From a virus, in IMG/VR virus record IMGVR_UViG_3300036771_000101, positions 1 to 64,000 of that record: DNA of 64,000 nt. The stretch is one strand, 5' to 3'. The notes below the pieces were generated by a model. It made no database searches and was not told where the DNA came from. It worked only from the letters and a program-made list of their open reading frames with translations. The position numbers and the translations under genes were made by a program. This document shows positions 2,670 through 29,781 of this stretch, piece by piece (within the stretch, counting starts at the first letter, position 1; every line of letters starts with the position of its first letter).

Positions 2670-3742
2670 CGACTCAACGCCGGTTGTATGACGGCTAGAC
2701 GATTCGACTGCTCGGCCCATGCCGTTCCATTGCCACTCCGGTCCCCACGATCCCGCCCGCTTCCGACTACGCGTCTCTCCCCAAGTCGATCCCGCCCGGC
2801 GACTTCTCACCGCATCCCTCGGCTTGCCATGCCTGGTCCGACTTCGCTTCTCAGCGCGTGTCTCCTCATTCCGAATCCACGACTTGTCGAGCCATACCCG
2901 GCCCACCCGACTGGTCAGATCAACACGTGCCCCTGCGGACCAAGCCGACTACTCACGTCCTCGCGTCCCAGTCCGAATCCGGCCCGACAGCCCAAGCCCA
3001 CCCGGCTCCACTCTGCCCGCGCCGCTCCGACTGGTCCACTCTGGTCACCACCTCGCGACTCCGGCCAACTCAACCCGACCGCTCTTCTCACCTCTCGACC
3101 GACTCCTCCCGGGCCAATCGACCACCCAATCCGGCACTGTCCATGTCGGTTCTCCTCAGCCCGGCGACTACTCGACACGTCTCCGCTCCACCCTTCCCGT
3201 GCCGCTCCACTGCGACTACTCGTTCCGTTGCACCTCCCAGCGGACCCGACCAATCCGACTTCTCGCCTCACCGCGTCTCGTGCCGCCGCCTACCGTCCCC
3301 ATCGACTGCTCAAGGCATCCCGAAACAACCCCTCACCGGCCCGGCCTCGCCATCCCATCCCGACTACCCCGTCCCGTCCCGACCCATCCAGGCCAACGAC
3401 TTCGCGCAACATCGCGTCTCGACTCGCCCCCGCCCGTCTCCACGACTACCCAGCACAGCCAAACCCATCCCCGACTACCCAGCCCAGCCCGAGTCGACAC
3501 GACTGGTCAACTCTGGTCCGCCCTACCCGGCCCGCCTCTTCCCCAGCCCCGACTGCCCATCGCACAACAGATCTGCTCCCGTCAGCACTCTCCTGGTCGC
3601 TTCCGACTCAGCTGCTCCGCTCCGCTCACACCATGTCGCAGCAGGCCCTGCCCGACTGCTCACCGCGAGGCGGCTCAACCCAACGCATGCGACTGGACGC
3701 GTCGCCGCCCCCCGAGCGCTTGGCTTGCAGGGGGCGGCGACT
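2670..3742 (+). repeat. C-rich, stop-free tract with 26 CGACT pentamers (non-coding)
   Basis: A strongly strand-biased tract between convergent transcription units. Two 60-base lines counted by hand give 30 C to 13 G (3001-3060) and 33 C to 8 G (3421-3480). CGACT occurs at 2670, 2705, 2764, 2800, 2839, 2880, 2908, 2946, 3028, 3056, 3100, 3165, 3213, 3256, 3303, 3361, 3397, 3420, 3443, 3472, 3500, 3550, 3604, 3653, 3690 and 3738, mean spacing about 43 bases, often as CCGACT followed by a variable pair and TC or CC. No TAA, TAG or TGA is seen on the + strand from about 2698 to 3741, so all three forward frames stay open, yet the translations are low-complexity Pro/Ser/Arg and lack an SD. I see no tRNA, CRISPR or known RNA. 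Function unknown. Confidence 0.8.
3701..3741. other. Strong hairpin closing the C-rich tract
   Basis: GTCGCCGCCCCC (3701-3712) pairs perfectly with GGGGGCGGCGAC (3730-3741) across a 17-base loop. GAGCGCTTG occurs once in the loop and again just after the right arm, so the two copies form a short direct repeat. It lacks a T-tract on either strand, so a structural or regulatory role is as likely as termination. Confidence 0.65.
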
Positions 3743-4096: not shown

Positions 4097-4594
4097 TCAG
4101 CGAGGAGTGACCGGATTGACCTTCCGCATCCCCTGCTCGTCGGTCTCGATGTGGTCCGGGTTGACCTTCTCCGCGACCTGAGCCAGTCGACCCTTGAGGA
4201 CTTCCATCTGCCGCATCGTCACGTCATGACCGGGGGCGATCTCGATCAGCCGGTTCAGCAGCGCCGGGTTCGAAATCGTCTCGACCCGCTTCGTGAACGT
4301 GCGGATCTGCGTCCGGAACAGGCTGGGAAGCTGGGCGTCCGACAGATGATTCGGGTTGTCGGTCACCTCAGGTTCGGTGTCCTCGGGCAGATTGATCGGC
4401 TGCAACATCCCGTTGGAGAACACGTCCAGCTTCGGGTCGGCAGCCATGTTCTGGTTCATCCGCCGATCTTCGGGTGAGATCGAGAAGGTCCGCATCCCGG
4501 TGATGAGTTCGTGGCGGGGCAGCCCGTTCGGGCCGTTGCGTAACACGACGATCTGGGCGTGCCCAGCGTTCTTCCACACCTCAACGATGTCCAT
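4097..4594 (-). CDS. Hypothetical protein, last gene of the leftward cassette
   Basis: 165 residues, ATG start with AAGGGAAG upstream on the minus strand. The protein is soluble, with a strand-rich first third (AQIVVLRNG, then HELITGMRTFSI), a Pro/Glu/Asp-rich middle and a helical end (LLNRLIEIAPGH through RLAQVAEKVNP) that could form a short coiled coil. It does not look like any family I can name. It is the fifth gene after the AbrB-like regulator and is probably co-transcribed with it. It has no signal peptide or membrane segment. Confidence 0.7.
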   Translation of the reverse strand: MDIVEVWKNAGHAQIVVLRNGPNGLPRHELITGMRTFSISPEDRRMNQNMAADPKLDVFSNGMLQPINLPEDTEPEVTDNPNHLSDAQLPSLFRTQIRTFTKRVETISNPALLNRLIEIAPGHDVTMRQMEVLKGRLAQVAEKVNPDHIETDEQGMRKVNPVTPR

Positions 4595-6740: not shown

Positions 6741-8582
6741 ATGGCCCGCAGGATCAACGATGCTCTGGATCTGACCTACAACGAGATCCAGAACGTTGTA
6801 GCCCAGAACCTGAGTGCCGACCCTGGCTCCGGTGTGGTTGATGGGCGGCTGTACTACTCCACGGCTCTCAACGCGCTGCGTCTGCGGGCAGGGGGCTCAT
6901 GGACCACGCTGGCGTCCGGGGCTGGTTACACAGACGAAGCGGCACAGGATGCTGTTGGCACGGCGTTTGCCAACGGCACCCAGTCGGGGGTCACCGTCAC
7001 TTACAACGACGGGGCCAACAGTCTCTCGATCGCCGTCACCAATGACGAGACGTTCCAGGATCAGGTTGGAGCGTTCCTGGGAACGAACACTGGTTCGACC
7101 GGGATCACGGCCACTTACGACGACACCAACAACCGGATGAATCTGGCGGTTGCCTACGCCGCTCCGGGGTTGACCCTGGGGACGAGCAACTCCGCCGGGT
7201 CGGCCAACACCGCTCTGCGGACAGACGCTACCATCGCCATTTTCGACGCCACCGTGCCGGTGAGCCAGGCGTTCGGGGATACGGCGGCGACCGGTTCCGC
7301 GGCCTTCGCTGCGCACCGGGACCACACCCACGGGATGCCCGCCAACCCGGTGAGCTACGCCTCGCCGGGGCTGACGCTGGGGACGTCCAACGCGGCTGGT
7401 TCGGCGACGACACTGATTCGTTCCGACGCCACCATCGCCGTCTTCGACGCCACGGCTCCGGTCACTCAGGCGTACAGCGACAGCGCGGCGACGGGTTCGG
7501 TGGCGGTGACAGCACGACGGGACCACAAGCATGGCATGCCCGCTCACGGTCTCACTCAGCACCAGGAACTCATCGCCACTTCCGATCTGACCGACTGGCC
7601 CCGCACGGCGGCGCTCGACCTGAACAGCCAGAAGATCACTGGTCTGGCTGACGGTTCGGCTGCCACCGACGCGGCGACCTTCGGGCAGCTGTCGGCAGCG
7701 GTGGCGGGGTTCGACTGGAAGGAGCCGGTTCACGCGGCGACGACAGCCACCGTCACTCTGGCTGGGGGTGCTCCTAACGCCATCGATGGTGTGACCCTGG
7801 TGGTGAACGACCGGGTCCTGGTCAAGAACCAGGGCACCGCCAGTGAGAATGGCGTCTACGTCGTGACCACTCTCGGGACCGGTGTGAACGGCACCTGGAA
7901 CCGGGCGACCGACATGGACGCGGCTGCTGAAGTCAACCAGGCCACGGTGCTCGTTGAGGCCGGTACGGTCAGCCAGGGCGACATCTACCAGCAGACCGCC
8001 ACCGTGACGACGTTGGGTTCGGACACCGTCACGTGGACCAAGGTCTCCGAGGGCAACACGCTTTACAGCGCCGACGGCACCACGCTGACGCTGACTGGCA
8101 CCCAGTTCTCGGTGACCAGCGCCGGGATCACCGGGACGCAACTCGCTGCCTCGGTAGCGGGCAACGGTCTGGCCGGTGGTGCGGGTTCTGCTCTCTCCGT
8201 CAACGTCGATTCCACCACCATCGAAATCAACGCCGACACGTTGCGGGTCGCAGCCTCCGCGGCGGGTAACGGGTTGACCGGTGGTGGTGGGTCGGCGCTG
8301 GCGGTCGGCGCCGGAACTGGTGTGAGCGTGGCAGCTGACTCGGTGGCGGTCGACCACGCGACGGTGCCGATGCTTTACGCTACGGCTCTGGCTGGTGGGG
8401 CCACGTCGGAGGTCATCACCCACAGTCTCGGGACGCGAGATGTGCAGGCCACGGTGTACCTGTCCAGCGGCACCTACGCCGAAGAGGATTTCTCCATCGA
8501 GCGGACGACGACGAACACGGTCACGGTCCGGAGCTCGGTGAGCATCCCCTCCTCCACCTACCGGATCGTCGTCTTCGGGTAA
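6741..8582 (+). CDS. Large fibre protein with duplicated 67-residue module
   Basis: 613 residues, ATG behind TAGGAGGACAC. Domains in order: a short N-terminal attachment segment (residues 1-55, RINDALDLTYNEIQNVV, similar in opening to the protein at 8758), Gly/Ser/Thr-rich beta repeats, two copies of a 67-residue module (139-272) each ending RDHTHGMP or RDHKHGMP, then a beta domain (about 324-430; VTLVVNDRVLVKNQGTASENGVYVV) of a type common in phage tail fibres, and a repetitive beta tail. The HxH ends may bind metal as in trimeric fibres. It is a virion adhesin; whether it sits on head or tail is open because the gene lies beside the capsid genes. Confidence 0.8.
   Translation: MARRINDALDLTYNEIQNVVAQNLSADPGSGVVDGRLYYSTALNALRLRAGGSWTTLASGAGYTDEAAQDAVGTAFANGTQSGVTVTYNDGANSLSIAVTNDETFQDQVGAFLGTNTGSTGITATYDDTNNRMNLAVAYAAPGLTLGTSNSAGSANTALRTDATIAIFDATVPVSQAFGDTAATGSAAFAAHRDHTHGMPANPVSYASPGLTLGTSNAAGSATTLIRSDATIAVFDATAPVTQAYSDSAATGSVAVTARRDHKHGMPAHGLTQHQELIATSDLTDWPRTAALDLNSQKITGLADGSAATDAATFGQLSAAVAGFDWKEPVHAATTATVTLAGGAPNAIDGVTLVVNDRVLVKNQGTASENGVYVVTTLGTGVNGTWNRATDMDAAAEVNQATVLVEAGTVSQGDIYQQTATVTTLGSDTVTWTKVSEGNTLYSADGTTLTLTGTQFSVTSAGITGTQLAASVAGNGLAGGAGSALSVNVDSTTIEINADTLRVAASAAGNGLTGGGGSALAVGAGTGVSVAADSVAVDHATVPMLYATALAGGATSEVITHSLGTRDVQATVYLSSGTYAEEDFSIERTTTNTVTVRSSVSIPSSTYRIVVFG
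7155..7556 (+). repeat. Tandem 201-bp duplication within the fibre gene
   Basis: Two adjacent 201-base units (7155-7355 and 7356-7556) encode 67-residue copies that both begin YA-PGLTLGTSN-AGSA and end RDH-HGMP. They differ at many positions, so the duplication is not recent, but the frame and length are exact. Confidence 0.8.
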
Positions 8583-8590
8583 GGAGCCCC

Positions 8591-8758
8591 ATGAACAAAA
8601 AGCAAGCACTCTCCATGCTCGCCTTCATCTCTGATCTGTACGCCATCATCCAGGAGACGAACGCCAAGGAGGCGGCAGAGGCGGCAGCGCAAGTGACTGC
8701 CAACGGCAAGGTTCCGGCTGAAAGTTCGTGGCAAGCAGAGCCTGTGACGACTGACTGA
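8591..8758 (+). CDS. Small hypothetical protein between fibre genes
   Basis: 55 residues; ATG follows AAGGAG (8581-8586) with 4 bases between. It is mostly one amphipathic helix (QALSMLAFISDLYAIIQETN, then AKEAAEAAAQV) with a polar tail. The stop overlaps the ATG of the following YadA-like gene by one base, so translation is coupled. It could be a small chaperone or a clamp for the adhesin encoded next; nothing in the sequence decides this. Confidence 0.7.
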   Translation: MNKKQALSMLAFISDLYAIIQETNAKEAAEAAAQVTANGKVPAESSWQAEPVTTD

Positions 8759-10110
8759 TGCCGCGCAGGACCAACGACGCGCTCGAAGTCATCGAGCAGG
8801 CTGCTCCGTCGAATCCTGCGTCTGGCGCGCTCCGGCTCTACGCCGGTACGGATCATCTGATCCACGCTCTCGACTCGTCGGGGATCGACACGGCGCTGAC
8901 GGTGTTCTCGACGCTCGGGTCGGGCACGAACTCGGTCCAGGTTGGCCCCAGTGCAGCGGCTTCGTCTACGCAGGCCATCGCCATTGGCGAGAATGCTCGG
9001 GCGACGACCGCCAACGAGACGATCGCCATCGGTGGCGGGACCAATACAACGGCGTCGCCTCTTGCCAACGCCCAGGGTGCCATCGCCATTGGTGCGTCCG
9101 ATGGCGCGGCCGTCAACGGAGCCAGGGCGAGTGCGGCCAATGCCATCGCTATCGGGAGTGGCGATGCGTCGACCGCCGGGGCGACCGCAAGCACTAGCAG
9201 TGTCGCGATCGGTAAAGGTGCGACCGCCACCTCTTCGACAATCGCCATCGGTCAGAATGCGACTGACGCAGGCAACAGTGGCTGCGTGGTCATCGGGGTC
9301 TCGGCAGGGGCGTCATCCACCAGTGCTATAGCCATCGGCACCTCGACAAGCGCGGCGTCGAACAGCATCGTCATCGGCGCCAGCGGAAGCTCCAGCGGCG
9401 GCAGCTCCGTCGGGATCGGGAAGTCAGTCAGTGCCACCAGTGCTCAGGCCGTCGCCATTGGGACGAACGCCAGGGCTACCACCGGTAACGAAGCTATCGC
9501 CATCGGTAGCGGCACCAACAACACGATGTCGGCGTTTGCTAACGCCCAAGGCGCAATCGCCATCGGGTCCTCGGACAGTGCGTCAGTCGCCGGAGCGAGG
9601 GCGTCCAACACTCTCACTATCGCCATCGGTTCGGGTGACGGATCCTCGGCTGGGGCGTCTGCGGGAGGGACATCGGCGATTGCCATAGGAGCGACCGCCA
9701 ACGCAGCGCAGACATACAGCCTTGCGCTTGGCTACTTTGCGTCGTCGGCGGCATCGAGTGCTATCGCCATAGGTTCGGGGAACACCACTGGGTCCACCGG
9801 TAGAGCGCCGTACGCGTCGGGGAACGGCAGCCTGGCTCTCGGTGGGAGTTTCAGTGGCACCGGGTCGAAGGCGAGCGGGACTGATGCGATTGCGATTGGC
9901 GGCTCGTTCCTGGGCGTTGGGGCTTCCGCGACGGGGACGGACTCCATTGCCGTCGGGCGTCAGGCGAGTTCCGCGTATGTGCGCTCTGTGGCTGTTGGGC
10001 AAGGAGCCATGACAACTCAGGACAATCAGATTGTGCTCGGCGTGGTCGGTGACACGGTGGTTGCCCGCACGTTCGCCACTCGTCTTTCGGCACGAACGTT
10101 CTACAGGTAG
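8758..10110 (+). CDS. YadA-head-like beta-roll adhesin I
   Basis: 450 residues. After a short N-terminal segment (PRRTNDALEVIEQAAP), residues about 60-430 are roughly 21 turns of the pattern (A/S)(I/V)AIG--A-A, for example AIAIGENARATT, SVAIGKGATAT and SLALGYFASSA. This is the left-handed beta-roll repeat of YadA heads and other trimeric autotransporter adhesins. The C-terminus (NQIVLGVVGDTVVARTF) caps the roll and recurs in the next protein. It lacks the YadA membrane anchor, as expected for a phage protein, so it should be a trimeric virion adhesin. It is the first of three consecutive genes of this type. Confidence 0.85.
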   Translation: MPRRTNDALEVIEQAAPSNPASGALRLYAGTDHLIHALDSSGIDTALTVFSTLGSGTNSVQVGPSAAASSTQAIAIGENARATTANETIAIGGGTNTTASPLANAQGAIAIGASDGAAVNGARASAANAIAIGSGDASTAGATASTSSVAIGKGATATSSTIAIGQNATDAGNSGCVVIGVSAGASSTSAIAIGTSTSAASNSIVIGASGSSSGGSSVGIGKSVSATSAQAVAIGTNARATTGNEAIAIGSGTNNTMSAFANAQGAIAIGSSDSASVAGARASNTLTIAIGSGDGSSAGASAGGTSAIAIGATANAAQTYSLALGYFASSAASSAIAIGSGNTTGSTGRAPYASGNGSLALGGSFSGTGSKASGTDAIAIGGSFLGVGASATGTDSIAVGRQASSAYVRSVAVGQGAMTTQDNQIVLGVVGDTVVARTFATRLSARTFYR

Positions 10111-10119
10111 GAGATCGGG

Positions 10120-10719
10120 ATGGCAGCTGATCCGCAGTTTGCAGCGCTTCCGGCGATCGGGGCAGTCGCTGTCTCGGCGACCATCGAAACGTCATATACC
10201 ACTCCGGCGCAGTCGGTGACGATCTTCAAGGCGACTGGTCCGAGGGTTGTGACCGATGGTGCCACGAACTCGAACTTCACGGTGACGTCGGCAACGCTGG
10301 CTTTCGGGGCGGGCGACATCGGTCGGACGATCTCTGGCGGCACGATTCCGGTTGGCACGACGATTACGGCGGTCGGTTCGGCAACGTCGGTGACGATCTC
10401 GGCCGCGGCGACGAGCACGGCGACCGGTGTGACGCTGACTCTGGGCGGCGGGCAGGGGTCGAAGATCGAGGAGATCGTCATCGAGGGAACGGGCACGACT
10501 CTGGCGGGCGTGATCGTCTACTCGCTCTACGACGGGACCACGTACCACTCCTTCGATTCGACGGTGGTGACGGCGGTTACGCCTTCGACTACGACTGCGC
10601 CGTTCCGGGCGTCGCAGCGCTACACGAACTTGATCCTGCCGCCGGGCTGGAGCTTGGTGGCGTCGTCGTGGGTGGCGAGCCAGCTGGCGAAGGTGACAGC
10701 GCTGGGCGGGAACTTCTGA
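10120..10719 (+). CDS. Minor structural protein with inserted beta domain
   Basis: 199 residues, ATG after TAGGAG. It is a paralogue of the 135-residue protein at 35827: both start MA-DPQFAA, share KIEEIVI and end with a P--TTAPFR-S--YTNL motif. This copy has about 70 extra residues (about 39-112; NFTVTSATLAFGAGDIGR to VTISAAATSTATGVTLTL), a small beta domain that I recall from other phage adhesins. Without the insert the two proteins align end to end. It lies between two YadA-like genes and overlaps the next by one base. Its role is probably an attachment or spacer protein of the fibres. Confidence 0.72.
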   Translation: MAADPQFAALPAIGAVAVSATIETSYTTPAQSVTIFKATGPRVVTDGATNSNFTVTSATLAFGAGDIGRTISGGTIPVGTTITAVGSATSVTISAAATSTATGVTLTLGGGQGSKIEEIVIEGTGTTLAGVIVYSLYDGTTYHSFDSTVVTAVTPSTTTAPFRASQRYTNLILPPGWSLVASSWVASQLAKVTALGGNF

Positions 10720-11696
10720 TGAGCAACTCGGGGCTGGTCTCTGGTTGGAAGCGGCCAGCCTTCCCGTTGGCCGACTCGACTGGGGCGATCGCTATCGGCG
10801 AGTCCGTCGATAGCGGCACCGACGCGACGGTCAACGAGATTGCGATCGGGAACAACGCCAAGGCGTCGTGGGCCAAAGCGTCTGGTGGTAGCACTGGTAC
10901 TGGGGCCAGCCCAATCGCCATAGGTTCCGGATCGGCGGGGGTGAATGGTCCCTGGGCAACTGCTGATGGGGCCATTGCCATCGGTGGCGGTCTGGGGACG
11001 AAGAACGGTCCGCGAGCAGCAACATCCAATTCGATCGCTATCGGTTCAAGCACGCCGAGCGGCGTAGGGCCCGTAGCGGGATCGCTCGGCGGAGAGTGCA
11101 TCGCCATCGGAAGGCAGGCTTCGGCGCTTGATACGGCGTCGATTGCCATTGGGTCTGCAGCGAGCGGATCCACGCACAACAACATCGTCATGGGTCAAAG
11201 CTCTTCCTCCAGCGGCGCATACGGAATTGCGATCGGAGCGAGTTCGAAAGTGACCGTCGACTCAGCAATGGCGCTGGGCCGGTCAGCGGATGCGGAGGCT
11301 CAGAGCGCCATTGCTATCGGGGCGTTTGCGACAACCTGGGGTTACCAAGGCGTCACCATTGGTGGCGGTCTCAACACGACGAACTGTCCAGTGGCGAACA
11401 GCCAGGGGAGTATCGCTATCGGTGCGGCGTCGGGAACTGCCGTCAACGGGGCGAGAGGGAATGGCAACTTCTCCATTGCCATTGGCTGTGGAGACGCCAC
11501 CGTTGCCGGAGCGTCGGCCGGTGCGGATGCGATCGCTCTAGGACGTGGGGCATCTGCTCCATATTCGCGTTCAATTGCCGTCGGTCAGGGAGCAACGGCG
11601 ACTCAGGCGAACCAGATCGTGCTGGGAATCGTTGGCGACACGGTCGTGGCGAGGACGTACATCGGCCGGTTGGCGGCGCGGGCGGACCTCAGGTGA
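10719..11696 (+). CDS. YadA-head-like beta-roll adhesin II
   Basis: 325 residues from ATG 10719, which overlaps the previous stop (TGATG); an upstream in-frame GTG at 10668 would add 17 unlikely residues. The start MSNSGLVSGWKRP-FPLADSTGAIAIGES is nearly repeated in the next protein, so it is probably the docking segment. From residue 24 the (A/S)IAIG turns run almost to the end, with the same cap as adhesin I (NQIVLGIVGDTVVART). Predicted trimeric beta roll, virion adhesin. Several turns carry a longer loop with GDA or GDG, which may lie on the binding side. Confidence 0.84.
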   Translation: MSNSGLVSGWKRPAFPLADSTGAIAIGESVDSGTDATVNEIAIGNNAKASWAKASGGSTGTGASPIAIGSGSAGVNGPWATADGAIAIGGGLGTKNGPRAATSNSIAIGSSTPSGVGPVAGSLGGECIAIGRQASALDTASIAIGSAASGSTHNNIVMGQSSSSSGAYGIAIGASSKVTVDSAMALGRSADAEAQSAIAIGAFATTWGYQGVTIGGGLNTTNCPVANSQGSIAIGAASGTAVNGARGNGNFSIAIGCGDATVAGASAGADAIALGRGASAPYSRSIAVGQGATATQANQIVLGIVGDTVVARTYIGRLAARADLR

Positions 11697-13363
11697 GCAA
11701 CAACGGCGTTCTGAGCGGGTGGAAGCGGACGACGCGACAGATTGCCGACTCGACTGGCGCGATCGGCATCGGCGAGAGCGCCGACTCTGGGTCTGACGCG
11801 ACAATCAACGAGGTTGCTATCGGGAATTGGGCGCGGGCGGCTGGTGGTAGCGAAGCCATCGCCATCGGGAGTGGGAGGAGCATCGTTTCGGCTCCGAACG
11901 CCACGGCTCAGGGCGCTATCGCGATCGGAGCCTCTGATGGCCTGACGGCAGTGGGCGCTATTGCCTCTGGTGTTCGGGCGGTGGCGATCGGATCGGGTTC
12001 GGCGACTCAGCTTGGTGCTTCGGCAGGTGGCGCTCAGGCCGTCGCCATCGGTGGATCGTGCTCGGGTAATGCCTCCAGTGTGGTTTCGATCGGGTTTAAC
12101 ACCAACGCCTCAGGGGCGAACGGAACGGCTTTGGGCACGAGTGCTTCGGCGAGTGCGACGGATACAGTTGCCTTGGGGGCCAGCGCCGCGGCTTCCGCCA
12201 TCCAGGCCATCGCCATCGGTCGCTCCGCACAAGCGGCTGCGACCTACGCCATCGCCTTTGGTTTCAACAGTTACGTTGGTAGTGGCAATGAAGCCATAGC
12301 GATCGGCGGTGGTCCTAGCGGATCTTCCGGTGCCCAGGCGAGCGCTCAGGGCGGAATCGCTATCGGAGGGTCGGACGGGTCGTCGGTCAACGGGGCGAGA
12401 GCGTCTGGCATAACTTCCCTTGCCATCGGCTCTGGGGACGCGGCGAACGCGGGAGCGTCAGCGTCAGCTGCTGACTGCATTGCCCTCGGTCGGGCGTCTC
12501 TTGCTGACGGTACGGACTGTGTCTCTATCGGGCGTGGGTCGCATGGTGGTAACAGCGGCACGCGTAACGTGGCTCTTGGTGTTAGCTCCATTGCTGGCAG
12601 TACTTCAACGGTGGCTGTTGGAGATTCCGCTAGCAGCAGCAGCAACTACGATGTGGCGGTTGGGTTCAATGCTTCAGCCCAGGGCGGGGGTTGTGTTGCT
12701 CTGGGCGGGGGTCAAAGCTCAACTGCAAGAGCCACAGCGAGCGGCACCCGCTCCATTGCGATCGGCGGGTCGGGCGGTAGCGGCATCGCCGGGTCAGTGG
12801 CCTCTGCTGCAAACGCCATTGCCATCGGCACGGGCGACGCCGCAGTGGTCGGGGCTTCAGCTACCGCTGCGGACGCCATCGCTTTGGGGCGGCATGCGAG
12901 CGCGGGGCATTCCCGAGGTGTGGCAATCGGTCAGGGAGCAGCGACCTCTGCGGCCAACCAGATCGTCCTCGGTGTCGCCAACGATCTGATTGTCGGGGCC
13001 GGGGTGAACGTGCTGGAGGAGATGGCGCCGTTCTCCGGAGCGGGAACGCTTGCTGTCGGCGCTGGCGTCGGACGCTTCCGTTTCCCGTTCCCTGCAACGA
13101 TCATCGGCGTGACGGCGGCAGTCAACACGGCTCCGGTGGGAGCAGCGATCATTCTCGACGTCGACAAAAACGGCACGACGATCTTCACGACGCAGGCCAA
13201 CCGTCCGTCGATCGCGGACGGAGCGAACGCGACGGCCTCGGAAGCCGTTCCGGATGTCACTTCTATGTCGGCTGGGGATTACCTCACGGTGGATCGCGAT
13301 CAGGTCGGTAGCACTGCGGCCGGAGCGGATCTCACCGTCTTCATTCGGTATCGGAGGACATGA
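11693..13363 (+). CDS. YadA-head-like beta-roll adhesin III with beta-sandwich tip
   Basis: 556 residues; GTG overlaps the previous stop by four bases. Residues 1-22 match the docking segment of adhesin II (GVLSGWKRTTRQIADSTGAI). Turns of (A/S)(I/V)AIG/ALG continue to about residue 440. The last 115 residues differ: ATIIGVTAAVNTAPVGAAI, then YLTVDRDQVGS and LTVFIRYRR form a beta-sandwich-like domain resembling the C-terminus of the protein at 48090. This is the only one of the three with a separate tip domain, so it may be the receptor-binding end. Confidence 0.84.
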   Translation: MSNNGVLSGWKRTTRQIADSTGAIGIGESADSGSDATINEVAIGNWARAAGGSEAIAIGSGRSIVSAPNATAQGAIAIGASDGLTAVGAIASGVRAVAIGSGSATQLGASAGGAQAVAIGGSCSGNASSVVSIGFNTNASGANGTALGTSASASATDTVALGASAAASAIQAIAIGRSAQAAATYAIAFGFNSYVGSGNEAIAIGGGPSGSSGAQASAQGGIAIGGSDGSSVNGARASGITSLAIGSGDAANAGASASAADCIALGRASLADGTDCVSIGRGSHGGNSGTRNVALGVSSIAGSTSTVAVGDSASSSSNYDVAVGFNASAQGGGCVALGGGQSSTARATASGTRSIAIGGSGGSGIAGSVASAANAIAIGTGDAAVVGASATAADAIALGRHASAGHSRGVAIGQGAATSAANQIVLGVANDLIVGAGVNVLEEMAPFSGAGTLAVGAGVGRFRFPFPATIIGVTAAVNTAPVGAAIILDVDKNGTTIFTTQANRPSIADGANATASEAVPDVTSMSAGDYLTVDRDQVGSTAAGADLTVFIRYRRT

Positions 13364-27400: not shown

Positions 27401-29781
27401 ACACGTACAACCACGCGAAGGAAGCATCGGAGAAGCAAGGAAAGGCGTTCGAGACTCAAGCCGAGAAGCTGCTCAACACCGGAACTGATCAGCAGAAGGC
27501 GTACATCGAGCATGTAGCGACGGGTCAGGAAGACATCTGGACACGTCTCGCTGGGGACATCGGGCTGGACACACCGAAGAAAGAAGCGGGGAAGGCCGTC
27601 ATTGCGGCCGAGGCTCCTGCACTGACGGCGAAGCTTCAGGCTCTGAAGAACCAGAAGATCCCTGGGCTCGAAGGCACGATCGACACCATCAAGCCGAAGA
27701 GGGATTCGTGGCTTGAAGAGAACCTGCACACCTTGGTGGATCCGACGTACAAAATCCCCAAGGACCGCAAGATCACGATCGATAGTCTGATCAGCAGACT
27801 CGCCAGCGGCGATGCGAAGGCAGCGGCAGACGCAAAGGCTGAGCTCGACAGACTCGGCAAGGACCCCAAGTACGCAGCGGCGGTAGCGCAGGCCATCGGG
27901 CTCGGCAACGACGTTGCTGATCAGGCGAGTGGGGCGATCGTCCAGACGGCCGATGAGGCAGTCAAGGGCTTCAAGGCCGGGCGAAACACCGCTGCTGAGA
28001 CGTTCGACAACATCAACCAGGCACTCGCTCGGGATCGGAATGTTCTTGCCTCGGAAGGGGATCAGCCCGACCCGAAGATCCAGGAAGAGATCGACAAGCT
28101 GATCGCCATGTCGAACGACGTGATCAGCACGATCACGTCGCAGGCGGAGTCTTGGATTTCCCTGGTCACGGCTGCTGGTGGAACGTCAGCGGATATCGCG
28201 GCGGCAACCCAGGATGAGATCACCAAGCTGGAATCAGCGTTGGCGTCAGCTTCGCTGGATCCGGCAACGAAAATTGCAACTGTTGCCAAGATCTTGCAGA
28301 TCAAGCAGGGGTTGTTGAAGTCGCTGGCGGATCATGCGCACTCGGCGGCTGACGCTTACAAGCTTCTGCTCGGTGGAACGACGATTTCCACTGAGGATCT
28401 CATCGCGGCGGGGGTGCTCACGGCTCCGGCTGCGGCGGGTGCCGCACCGTCGGGACCGTTGTCAGTACCGGAAGATGCGTGGAAACCTGGTGGCGTTCCG
28501 ACGGGACCAGTAGCTGGTCCGCCAGTACCTGCTGCGCCTACTCCTGCATATCAGCTGCCAGCGTTTACTGGGCCGTTCGGGGCGGCTCCTCCGCCGACTG
28601 GGGCTGGTCCTGTCCCGACTGCTGCAGCGCCGACTGGGCAGGCACCTGCTTCACCGACGACGGCCACCTATGCGGATGGCTACACGGTGGATGTCGGTGG
28701 AGTGAAGATTGTCTACGACGCCAAGACAAATTCTTGGAAGATCCCGGCTCTATCGGAGTCGCTCAAAGCGGCGTCGCGTGCAGCTATCCAGGAAAGTCTT
28801 GGCACGTACACCCTGCAGAAGTCCGAGACCAGGGACCCGCAGAAGCAAGCCCAGATTAGTCTCAAGTCGGCTCAGGACAACCTTGCTCAACTCAAGGCGC
28901 AGACTGGTGATGCGGCGGCGACGAAGGCTGAGCTCGATGCGGCTCAGGCTCAAGTCAACGATGCGCAGAATGCTCTGGACGACGCGAACAATGCTGCTGA
29001 TGACGCCAATCTTCAGTTGTCCCGAGCTCGGATCGGGACGTTACCGAACGCTCTTGAGGACGCCAAGCTCGCCCAGCAGGACGCTAAGAACGCCATTGCC
29101 CGAGCTCATGGTCCAGTGGCGGAGGCTCAGGCTCAGATCGCGAAGCTGAAAGCGGATCAGCAGTACAAGGACGCGATGACGGCCATTGCTGACTCCCGGG
29201 TCAATCTGTTGATCACGTTGGCGCAGGCAGCTGGAGATGACGTTACGGCTACGAAGCTGCGGTTGGACGATGACCAGAAGAAACTCAGGGATGCCATCGC
29301 TCAGGGCGGAGCGGGCGACGAGTACCTCAACCCACTGAAGGCGCAAGTCGCCCAGGACCGCGCATCGGTGATCGCCGCGCAGCTGGCTGATGTGGAGAGC
29401 ACGATCGACTTCCAGCTGGAGATGGGTCAGCTGACCAAGGGTCAGGCCATCGCTCAACTTCAGGCTGAACTTCCGTTGGTGGCAGGGAATCAGAAGCAGA
29501 CGAGAGAGCTTCTCTTGAAGATCCATCAGCTGATGAACGACACAGCTTCGGGGTTGCAGTTCAACCTCGGTGACATCAAGCTCCCGACGCTGTACGAGGT
29601 AAACCGGCTGGCCGGGACCAGGGCCGCTGGCACTGGATACAACGACAATCGGCAGATCTCGATCACCATGCACAACTACAACTCGACCGATTACCAGGGT
29701 TCCATCGATCAGTTCGTTGATCTTGCGAACCAACCCAGTCGGTACGGCACGTACGCCAGTATCTACCCGACGAGGAACTGA
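24460..29781 (+). CDS. Tape measure protein
   Basis: 1,773 residues, by far the longest gene here, directly after the chaperones. It fixes tail length and is held inside the tube; at about 1.5 angstrom per residue the tail would be near 265 nm. Residues 1-700 are helical and coiled (QLRQAVSKQINQINNLLKI). Two hydrophobic segments (about 778-815, VLLGVFGAINNTTHGL; about 955-985, FSLGTLAFTGVVSAAIIAV) could cross the host membrane at DNA entry. Residues about 832-950 are Ala/Gly/Glu low complexity and 1325-1410 Pro/Ala/Thr-rich. A C-terminal coiled region (about 1460-1560; DDANNAADDANLQLSR) follows. No lysozyme or peptidase motif is visible. Confidence 0.93.
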   Translation: MAGEFLIEGKVKIGLDASQFSSQLQKMAQDAESAVNSLKSTLTKQLTSTKPESEKSATVASGVTKFQGQQRGFEKQISELQASGAVTPQQATQLRQAVSKQINQINNLLKIDESTGKIQSELGQVLEKYGQNVKRQNEVVAGVRGKGGSSGGRGGGGNPPRPLAGGGGEGEEGISDAAIRQREAAAGARALIADEAYIEATVLLNAARRALSANIIAEEEASVLSLREIINLRIAREKLAARTESELSNQPEFIGAKTSRALSGLDIKAQVAQGVAGEQGAESTLALEKGQKTLAALVQELALSDESLIELNAKLKTQGLQLVAATNEKLAADETYIETQHTLNRQKVEEATTLARERTVDQEMVGVNAELLNARRAEKRAVEQRAIDERNAELQQQGITPTRWQSLGAKVKSATTGEAQDPFEQATFGSQLAQRGLIAGQYAIAGLSIRQVLTTVTSMVAEAEKLEVVFGQIDLELKAIGQGDAFDKVRSDVLDIAKNLGIAADQLAGIEQRTIGVYQNISQATAATKAIGQLQLVTGIPSADLFKNLIPAALAFGTTIDQIGDKVIGLSQRFGTNNAETVAFFGRASEVASSTGLTLDQLGAISATLQQRLGQGGTASADLFDRVATSLGQNSEKILDIMGRIPSLAPQVNETAAAIAKGNTGQALLTIAQGWSKVGEDARKSLLQQVANRREAATMKVLLDNLAPALATEGAAGDDSGKLGTAAAKTQDTIAQGIARLKEALRQLGDTIARSGLSSFLKDVLTVADALAKVAGVLLGVFGAINNTTHGLVGTFAALTAALFAVRFAMNAIANLKGSQFGASVRRGLQPAEQVAEGGAAEAAGATEAAGVAGGATLAEGGTAAGTEVAAGGKAAGEALEAGAEQSAVGMEAGAGAAAETIVAGGVGAAEQIAAAGPEVAASLEAAGAETATQVEAAGVGMRARLASAGSGVSELTVAGFSLGTLAFTGVVSAAIIAVTNTYNHAKEASEKQGKAFETQAEKLLNTGTDQQKAYIEHVATGQEDIWTRLAGDIGLDTPKKEAGKAVIAAEAPALTAKLQALKNQKIPGLEGTIDTIKPKRDSWLEENLHTLVDPTYKIPKDRKITIDSLISRLASGDAKAAADAKAELDRLGKDPKYAAAVAQAIGLGNDVADQASGAIVQTADEAVKGFKAGRNTAAETFDNINQALARDRNVLASEGDQPDPKIQEEIDKLIAMSNDVISTITSQAESWISLVTAAGGTSADIAAATQDEITKLESALASASLDPATKIATVAKILQIKQGLLKSLADHAHSAADAYKLLLGGTTISTEDLIAAGVLTAPAAAGAAPSGPLSVPEDAWKPGGVPTGPVAGPPVPAAPTPAYQLPAFTGPFGAAPPPTGAGPVPTAAAPTGQAPASPTTATYADGYTVDVGGVKIVYDAKTNSWKIPALSESLKAASRAAIQESLGTYTLQKSETRDPQKQAQISLKSAQDNLAQLKAQTGDAAATKAELDAAQAQVNDAQNALDDANNAADDANLQLSRARIGTLPNALEDAKLAQQDAKNAIARAHGPVAEAQAQIAKLKADQQYKDAMTAIADSRVNLLITLAQAAGDDVTATKLRLDDDQKKLRDAIAQGGAGDEYLNPLKAQVAQDRASVIAAQLADVESTIDFQLEMGQLTKGQAIAQLQAELPLVAGNQKQTRELLLKIHQLMNDTASGLQFNLGDIKLPTLYEVNRLAGTRAAGTGYNDNRQISITMHNYNSTDYQGSIDQFVDLANQPSRYGTYASIYPTRN

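Follow-up and report, generated by a model that had tools for sequence, protein, structure and literature searches.

The window analysed here comprises bases 1-64,000 of an 85,022-base IMG/VR virus record (IMGVR_UViG_3300036771_000101). Its C-rich tract at 2698-3742, judged from its sequence, is very likely a VIPR array, encoding guide RNAs (vrRNAs) in series, because about 100 like arrays occur in other phages, usually beside a RAMP-fold homolog of Vipr from phage SUSP1. Our literature search for VIPR found only one paper, a 2026 preprint (PMC13142463), whose main text describes RAMP proteins that are encoded by phages and guided by vrRNAs built of GGY/NN pentamers. These recognise double-stranded DNA by reading two bases and skipping the next, and the skip usually falls on the wobble base. 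The targets reported there are satellites, prophages and their lysogeny regulators, and repression was shown as the effect of other VIPRs (PMC13142463). As described there, type II vrRNAs consist of 9-16 repeats with an invariable 3' tail as anchor, and seven VIPR types are distinguished, including staggered, hammerhead-interspersed and single-vrRNA layouts, with arrays of "related consensus" (PMC13142463). In the window array, pentamers follow one another in tandem, two of their positions being hypervariable and three constrained, and the targets of two of its units (those starting at 2705 and 3550) are read by a 1-nt skip, wobble-aligned, in competing phages; its relatives are in addition associated with a Vipr-type RAMP protein.

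An earlier note on this DNA had reported 26 copies of CGACT in the tract. We counted 25 on the + strand and two of the reverse complement AGTCG; the excess over chance stands, as 500 dinucleotide-preserving shuffles of the tract yielded 2.8 +/- 1.6 copies and at most 10. The reported strand skew was likewise recovered (C 46%, G 21%, lowest G-C skew -0.49), and so was the lack of TAA, TAG and TGA on the + strand (0 over 1,045 bases; 10.8 expected from the shuffles, minimum 3), the second-longest stop-free run within the window being 565 bases. Also in agreement with that note, the CGACT-to-CGACT spacings (23-82) are not constant, and on a scan of the window neither the skew nor the repeat word has a counterpart; the spacings also vary modulo 3. 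Its view that the tract is neither a normal gene nor a CRISPR array holds as well, since the period is 5 instead of 3 and no identical direct repeats with unique spacers were found in the tract.

This period-5 order had been missed by the earlier note. The autocorrelation of C at lags 5, 10 and 15 was 0.32, 0.23 and 0.12, compared with a shuffle maximum of 0.09 at lag 5. A pentamer pattern, NNSYC, runs 3' of every CGAC, as in the unit CGAC TGCTC GGCCC ATGCC GTTCC ATTGC CACTC CGGTC CCCAC GATCC CGCCC GCTTC. Within the pentamer the first two bases are near uniform, the third is seldom A or T, the fourth is usually a pyrimidine and the fifth is C, which occupies the positions +5, +10 and so on after CGAC in 97, 96, 93, 100, 89 and 88% of cases over the first six pentamers. 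The phase is re-set by each CGAC and is smeared if counted backwards from the following one; as it is not carried past the next CGAC, there is no indication of overlapping guides. The lack of stops follows for the most part from the pentamers with their C at every fifth base: a five-phase composition model left 8.8 stops expected in the tract against none found, and in the related array L081 stops were about as frequent as expected. We therefore rejected selection against stops as the main feature. The idea that each pentamer is a codon plus two bases was also dropped, stops in L081 at that phase being about as expected; the impression had arisen from the real codon matches in the first unit.

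Related arrays were found by rhythm, which is all that they share; BLASTN of the tract against phages gave no match. A pattern of three CGACTNSTC identified two more phages that carry such a tract, L081 (where it amounts to 4.3 kb) and L113, while matches in L046, L079, L135, L069, L129 and some others proved to be ordinary coding repeats. A pattern of two CGAC-led pentamer runs returned at least 120 stretches, and a scan for C-rich, period-5, CGAC-dense stretches returned 99 IMG/VR loci with 109 distinct arrays, though a few of these are likely to be coding repeats. These arrays occur at varying genome places and on both strands. Across about 100 of them, unit lengths peak at 28, 33, 38, 43 and 48 (3 + 5n), indicating that the divider is GAC. 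The CGACT word is thus only a unit boundary, GAC dividing runs of pentamers whose information lies in bases 1 and 2; a T after GAC is commoner in the window phage than in the other arrays. An Rfam scan of the window stretch and ten relatives revealed no ribozyme and nothing else relevant.

When the proteins encoded around the arrays were clustered, one family of about 230 amino acids was present in 34 loci, always within 1.5 kb of the array. A profile search found this partner family in 59 of the 99 array loci and in 12 of 20 further whole records, all eight misses being contigs shorter than 24 kb; it was absent from 24 relatives of the window's capsid gene that lack such arrays. Its members share a central NGFKRDxxGLYIEGRQxKAALKEAA-like segment and, towards the C terminus, a glycine-rich loop (GIGASRSQGFGRY). 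The SUSP1 Vipr gene, which we identified at 28474-29061 of KT454805 through the TNNGG arrays on both sides, matches the partner family in the corresponding segments, and the family is homologous to Vipr. In a search of the PDB with an AlphaFold2 model of the partner protein (pLDDT 89.8, pTM 0.83), class 1 CRISPR RAMP chains made up nearly all or all of the 50 best matches; the best match had an E value of 4.5e-7 and a TM score of about 0.45, indicating kinship at the fold level. The model also matched a viral "Cas system-associated RAMP superfamily protein" (E 1.6e-10).

Several individual arrays were also recorded. In the named isolate Microcystis phage Mae-JY09 (L340 4735-5150), a practical experimental model, a CGAC-pentamer array lies directly 3' of a Vipr homolog, and the array has a hairpin similar to the one at the end of the window array. 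Pentamer arrays adjoin "hypothetical" genes similar to SUSP1 Vipr in Gordonia phage Ecliptus (L342 4357-4619) and Pseudomonas phage Medea1 (L343 5015-5229), and an array of consensus ANNGC stands beside such a gene in Listonella phage phiHSIC (L344 4600-4925). The 90.8-kb record IMGVR_UViG_3300037258_000549 (L155, L179, L222, L226) carries at least six arrays on both strands, with 91 matches to the unit pattern, and a prophage-like contig (L097 4290-4500) carries an ACCNN-style pentamer array (NNGGT on the opposite strand). A second protein family of about 180 amino acids (DYLxxMxxAIxAAIPxG...) adjoins arrays in 11 of 12 loci (L232, L201, L169, L245 and others) and is a candidate accessory (vap) gene.

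Units were decoded by the published rule, in which NN (pentamer bases 1-2) is followed by one skipped target base (PMC13142463). Unit 2705 reads TGxGGxATxGTxATxCAxCGxCCxGAxCGxGC, corresponding to codons for CGMVIHRPERA in what is probably the major capsid gene. It agrees at 21 of 22 bases with this gene in sister phage L002, the closest relative, and at 20 of 22 with the phage's own copy. By comparison, the best of 400 shuffles reached 18, skips of 0, 2 or 3 reached 16 and other pairs of pentamer bases reached 17; the third pentamer base is free, with agreement at only 6/11 and 3/11. In the phage's own gene, where these codons lie at 2480-2512, both arginine codons are AGA and AGG, as against CGN in the unit, and two of the gene's three AGR codons fall within this site. 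Few synonymous changes affect a base that is read; CGN to AGR is one of them, and the difference suggests self-avoidance.

The pattern of unit 3550 (20 fixed bases) has exact matches in 44 IMG/VR contigs, with far below one expected by chance. The unit decodes on the opposite strand, and 41 of the 44 matches are codons for AHELGHLVMH in an open frame, which is the active-site motif of ImmA/IrrE-type (Peptidase_M78) regulators; of seven target proteins scanned, six matched Peptidase_M78, five of those with a helix-turn-helix domain. For four other long units, the IMG/VR search returned 0, 0, 0 and 1 matches: no exact target was found for unit 3303 in IMG/VR or GTDB contigs or for unit 3500 in IMG/VR, and the single exact IMG/VR match of unit 3604 is about the chance level. 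The unit-3550 guide recurs in two other arrays, L252 and L156, with NN agreement of 18/18 and 17/18; agreement at bases 3 and 4 is near chance, at 5/9 and 3/9 in L252 and 3/9 and 3/9 in L156. Guides of three unrelated phages thus aim at one ImmA/IrrE motif, and they have converged on the read positions.

We propose that each unit, starting at (C)GAC and holding 4-11 NNSYC pentamers, would act as one guide. Vipr would form a filament along the RNA, its RAMP fold gripping the S, Y and C positions, and the NN positions would pair with the double-stranded DNA of a rival, two bases and then one skipped, with the skip on the codon wobble. Bound complexes may then block transcription, for example of a sister phage's capsid gene or of prophage ImmA/IrrE regulators, if repression operates here as in other VIPRs. 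With two guides decoding to rival-phage genes, the array is probably a weapon against rival phages.

A number of observations weigh against this interpretation. The constrained bases read SYC in the C-rich strand (GRS in its complement), where the published ones are GGY, and the units hold 4-11 repeats without a recognised tail, compared with 9-16 and a 3' tail; as other types are said to differ in layout, repeat number and tail speak against type II and not against VIPR. Profile-profile comparison of the partner family with the single SUSP1 sequence was weak. No vipr was found in the 85-kb record with two Vipr group profiles, the G-loop pattern or SUSP1 Vipr alone, which would leave the array an orphan unless the record, which has no end repeats, is incomplete; in another genome (G014) the array lies more than 70 kb from vipr, and a missing part of the genome could therefore hold it. 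Any Vipr serving the window array may be encoded in such a part, be too divergent or be supplied by a co-resident element. Among about 17 units that could be tested, a target could be assigned to only two; short units do not allow a test in large collections. When 247 long units from all arrays were compared with a small sequence set of 3.3 Mb, the 1-nt skip gave 19 matches with at most one mismatch, each other skip 8 and shuffled guides 11, a slight excess driven partly by the guides of units 2705 and 3550. Finally, that the array is transcribed, probably from the C-rich strand, is our inference.

Which strand serves as the guide bears on the first of the alternatives. If the array were transcribed leftward, the guide would be the G-rich minus strand, with GRSNN repeats and a 3' GUCG anchor. 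GRSNN resembles the published GGYNN, the type II vrRNAs of the main text are anchored by a 3' tail, and decoding of a double-stranded target is equal for either strand. However, vipr is encoded on the C-rich strand in 49 of 52 loci and in phage Mae-JY09, and SUSP1, Ecliptus and phiHSIC likewise have their repeats on the strand of vipr, the ANNGC of phiHSIC grading into NNSYC. Moreover, the C-rich strand is nearly unstructured, folding at -18.8 kcal/mol per 100 nt, compared with -35.0 for the G-rich strand. The strand data from the vipr loci and phages favour guides on the + strand, built as (C)GAC-(NNSYC)n; the RNA strand is probably the C-rich one, and we regard a G-rich guide as unlikely. 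End hairpins and terminators were rejected as a test of strand, as the two array ends show no clear difference.

It is less likely still that the array is a degenerate, disused remnant, orphaned in this genome. The lack of vipr in the 85-kb record would fit, as would units that are short or out of phase (3056-3110, 3361-3499), but decay would have eroded the fifth-position C, which is kept at 88-100% over six pentamers after CGAC, and unit 3550 exactly matches present-day genes. The strand bias, C richness, repeated word and location 3' of an operon could also suit a DNA element, such as a binding array, Chi-like or primase sites, a packaging or partition site or a rut-like Rho loading site. 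This is very improbable: such an element does not need five-base phasing with free NN, it leaves the decoded targets, convergent guides and RAMP link unexplained, and the arrays stand at variable genome positions on both strands. Among the interpretations listed in the earlier note, non-coding RNA accordingly stands, while a protein-binding array, decoy, packaging or replication site and recombination sink were unsupported. That one of the three open + frames (312-426 codons) encodes a low-complexity protein can be practically dismissed, given the period of 5 and unit spacings that are no multiple of 3, relatives that share rhythm alone, two units that decode to known genes and no conserved peptide seen in relatives from any frame.

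In the preferred reading as a VIPR array, about 20 guide-like units, each CGAC (or GAC) followed by 4-11 NNSYC pentamers, occupy 2705-3700 of the + strand, which is C-rich and probably the RNA strand. Unit 1 (2705-2763, 11 pentamers) is followed by units of 5-7 pentamers at 2764, 2800, 2839, 2880, 2908 and 2946 (2764-2984) and by units of 5-8 pentamers at 2985, 3028, 3119, 3213 and 3256, with short or imperfect units between (2985-3302). Then come a unit of 11 pentamers (3303-3360), units of 2-5 pentamers at 3361-3472 and one of 9 at 3500 (together 3361-3549), the unit of 10 pentamers with the AHELGHLVMH target (3550-3603), and units at 3604 (9 pentamers) and 3653 (6 pentamers), ending at 3689. 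A 12-bp perfect hairpin (GTCGCCGCCCCC / GGGGGCGGCGAC) at 3701-3741, unassigned to a strand, closes the array and is a possible tail or terminator. A lone CGAC with eight NNNYC pentamers outside the array, on the minus strand at 67961 of the record, may be chance or a stray guide.

The tract sits 3' of the probable major capsid gene (1592-2581, + strand) and is followed by opposite-strand genes, in agreement with the convergent transcription units described earlier; a 13-bp inverted repeat forming a terminator-like stem (2604-2635, + strand) lies between capsid gene and array. The capsid gene was named by its position after scaffold-like and decoration-like genes, because its protein matches no Pfam family and its PHROG matches have no known function. 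Its relatives are few (GX15bay at 58%, and 28 IMG/VR loci), none of the 28 loci has a comparable tract, and the closest, L002 (89%), has a different sequence at the tract position. The minus-strand gene that comes after the array (4097-4594) resembles L003 7067-7590 (+), a gene 3' of the L003 capsid gene and on the same strand as it; judged by eye, the 3.75-6.0 kb block seems to be inverted relative to L003. Long genes rich in IAIG repeats, resembling YadA-head adhesins, occupy 6741-13363.

An unannotated tract in an uncultivated phage has thus been recognised as a VIPR-type guide array from its letters alone, two of its guides have provided an independent check of the VIPR code, and a simple searchable signature has led to about 100 more arrays. 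That three phages independently write the same guide, with NN alone conserved, is direct evolutionary evidence for the noncontiguous code, and phage-phage targeting networks become readable from metagenomes. We also propose, tentatively and with some doubt, that the window array represents a punctuated architecture absent from the main text of PMC13142463, in which dozens of short C-rich guides in one run, divided only by GAC, are read from a fixed 5' (C)GAC and aimed at codons of conserved protein motifs, and whose owner protects its capsid gene from its own guide through changes from CGN to AGR.

Class 1 CRISPR systems with their Cas7-like RAMPs are similar in the RAMP fold of the partner protein and in serial, anti-phage guides, but the window has no CRISPR repeats, spacers or cas genes, and its guides have an internal five-base rhythm and noncontiguous pairing. 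The other VIPR layouts of the main text share pentamer guide arrays of "related consensus" (PMC13142463); unlike the staggered, hammerhead and single-vrRNA forms, the window array has no sign of overlap, no Rfam ribozyme and many guides. The SUSP1 VIPR of type II, as described in that text, is alike in its tandem pentamers with two hypervariable and three constrained bases, in a RAMP-fold Vipr near the array (here in related loci), and in the 1-nt, wobble-base skip with targets in other phages (PMC13142463). It differs in that the window units abut with only GAC between them and no structured tail per guide, hold 4-11 pentamers with constrained bases SYC (or GRS) instead of GGY, and stand in a record without vipr. 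Set against these main-text descriptions, the window array is a punctuated, C-rich variety of VIPR, orphan in its record.
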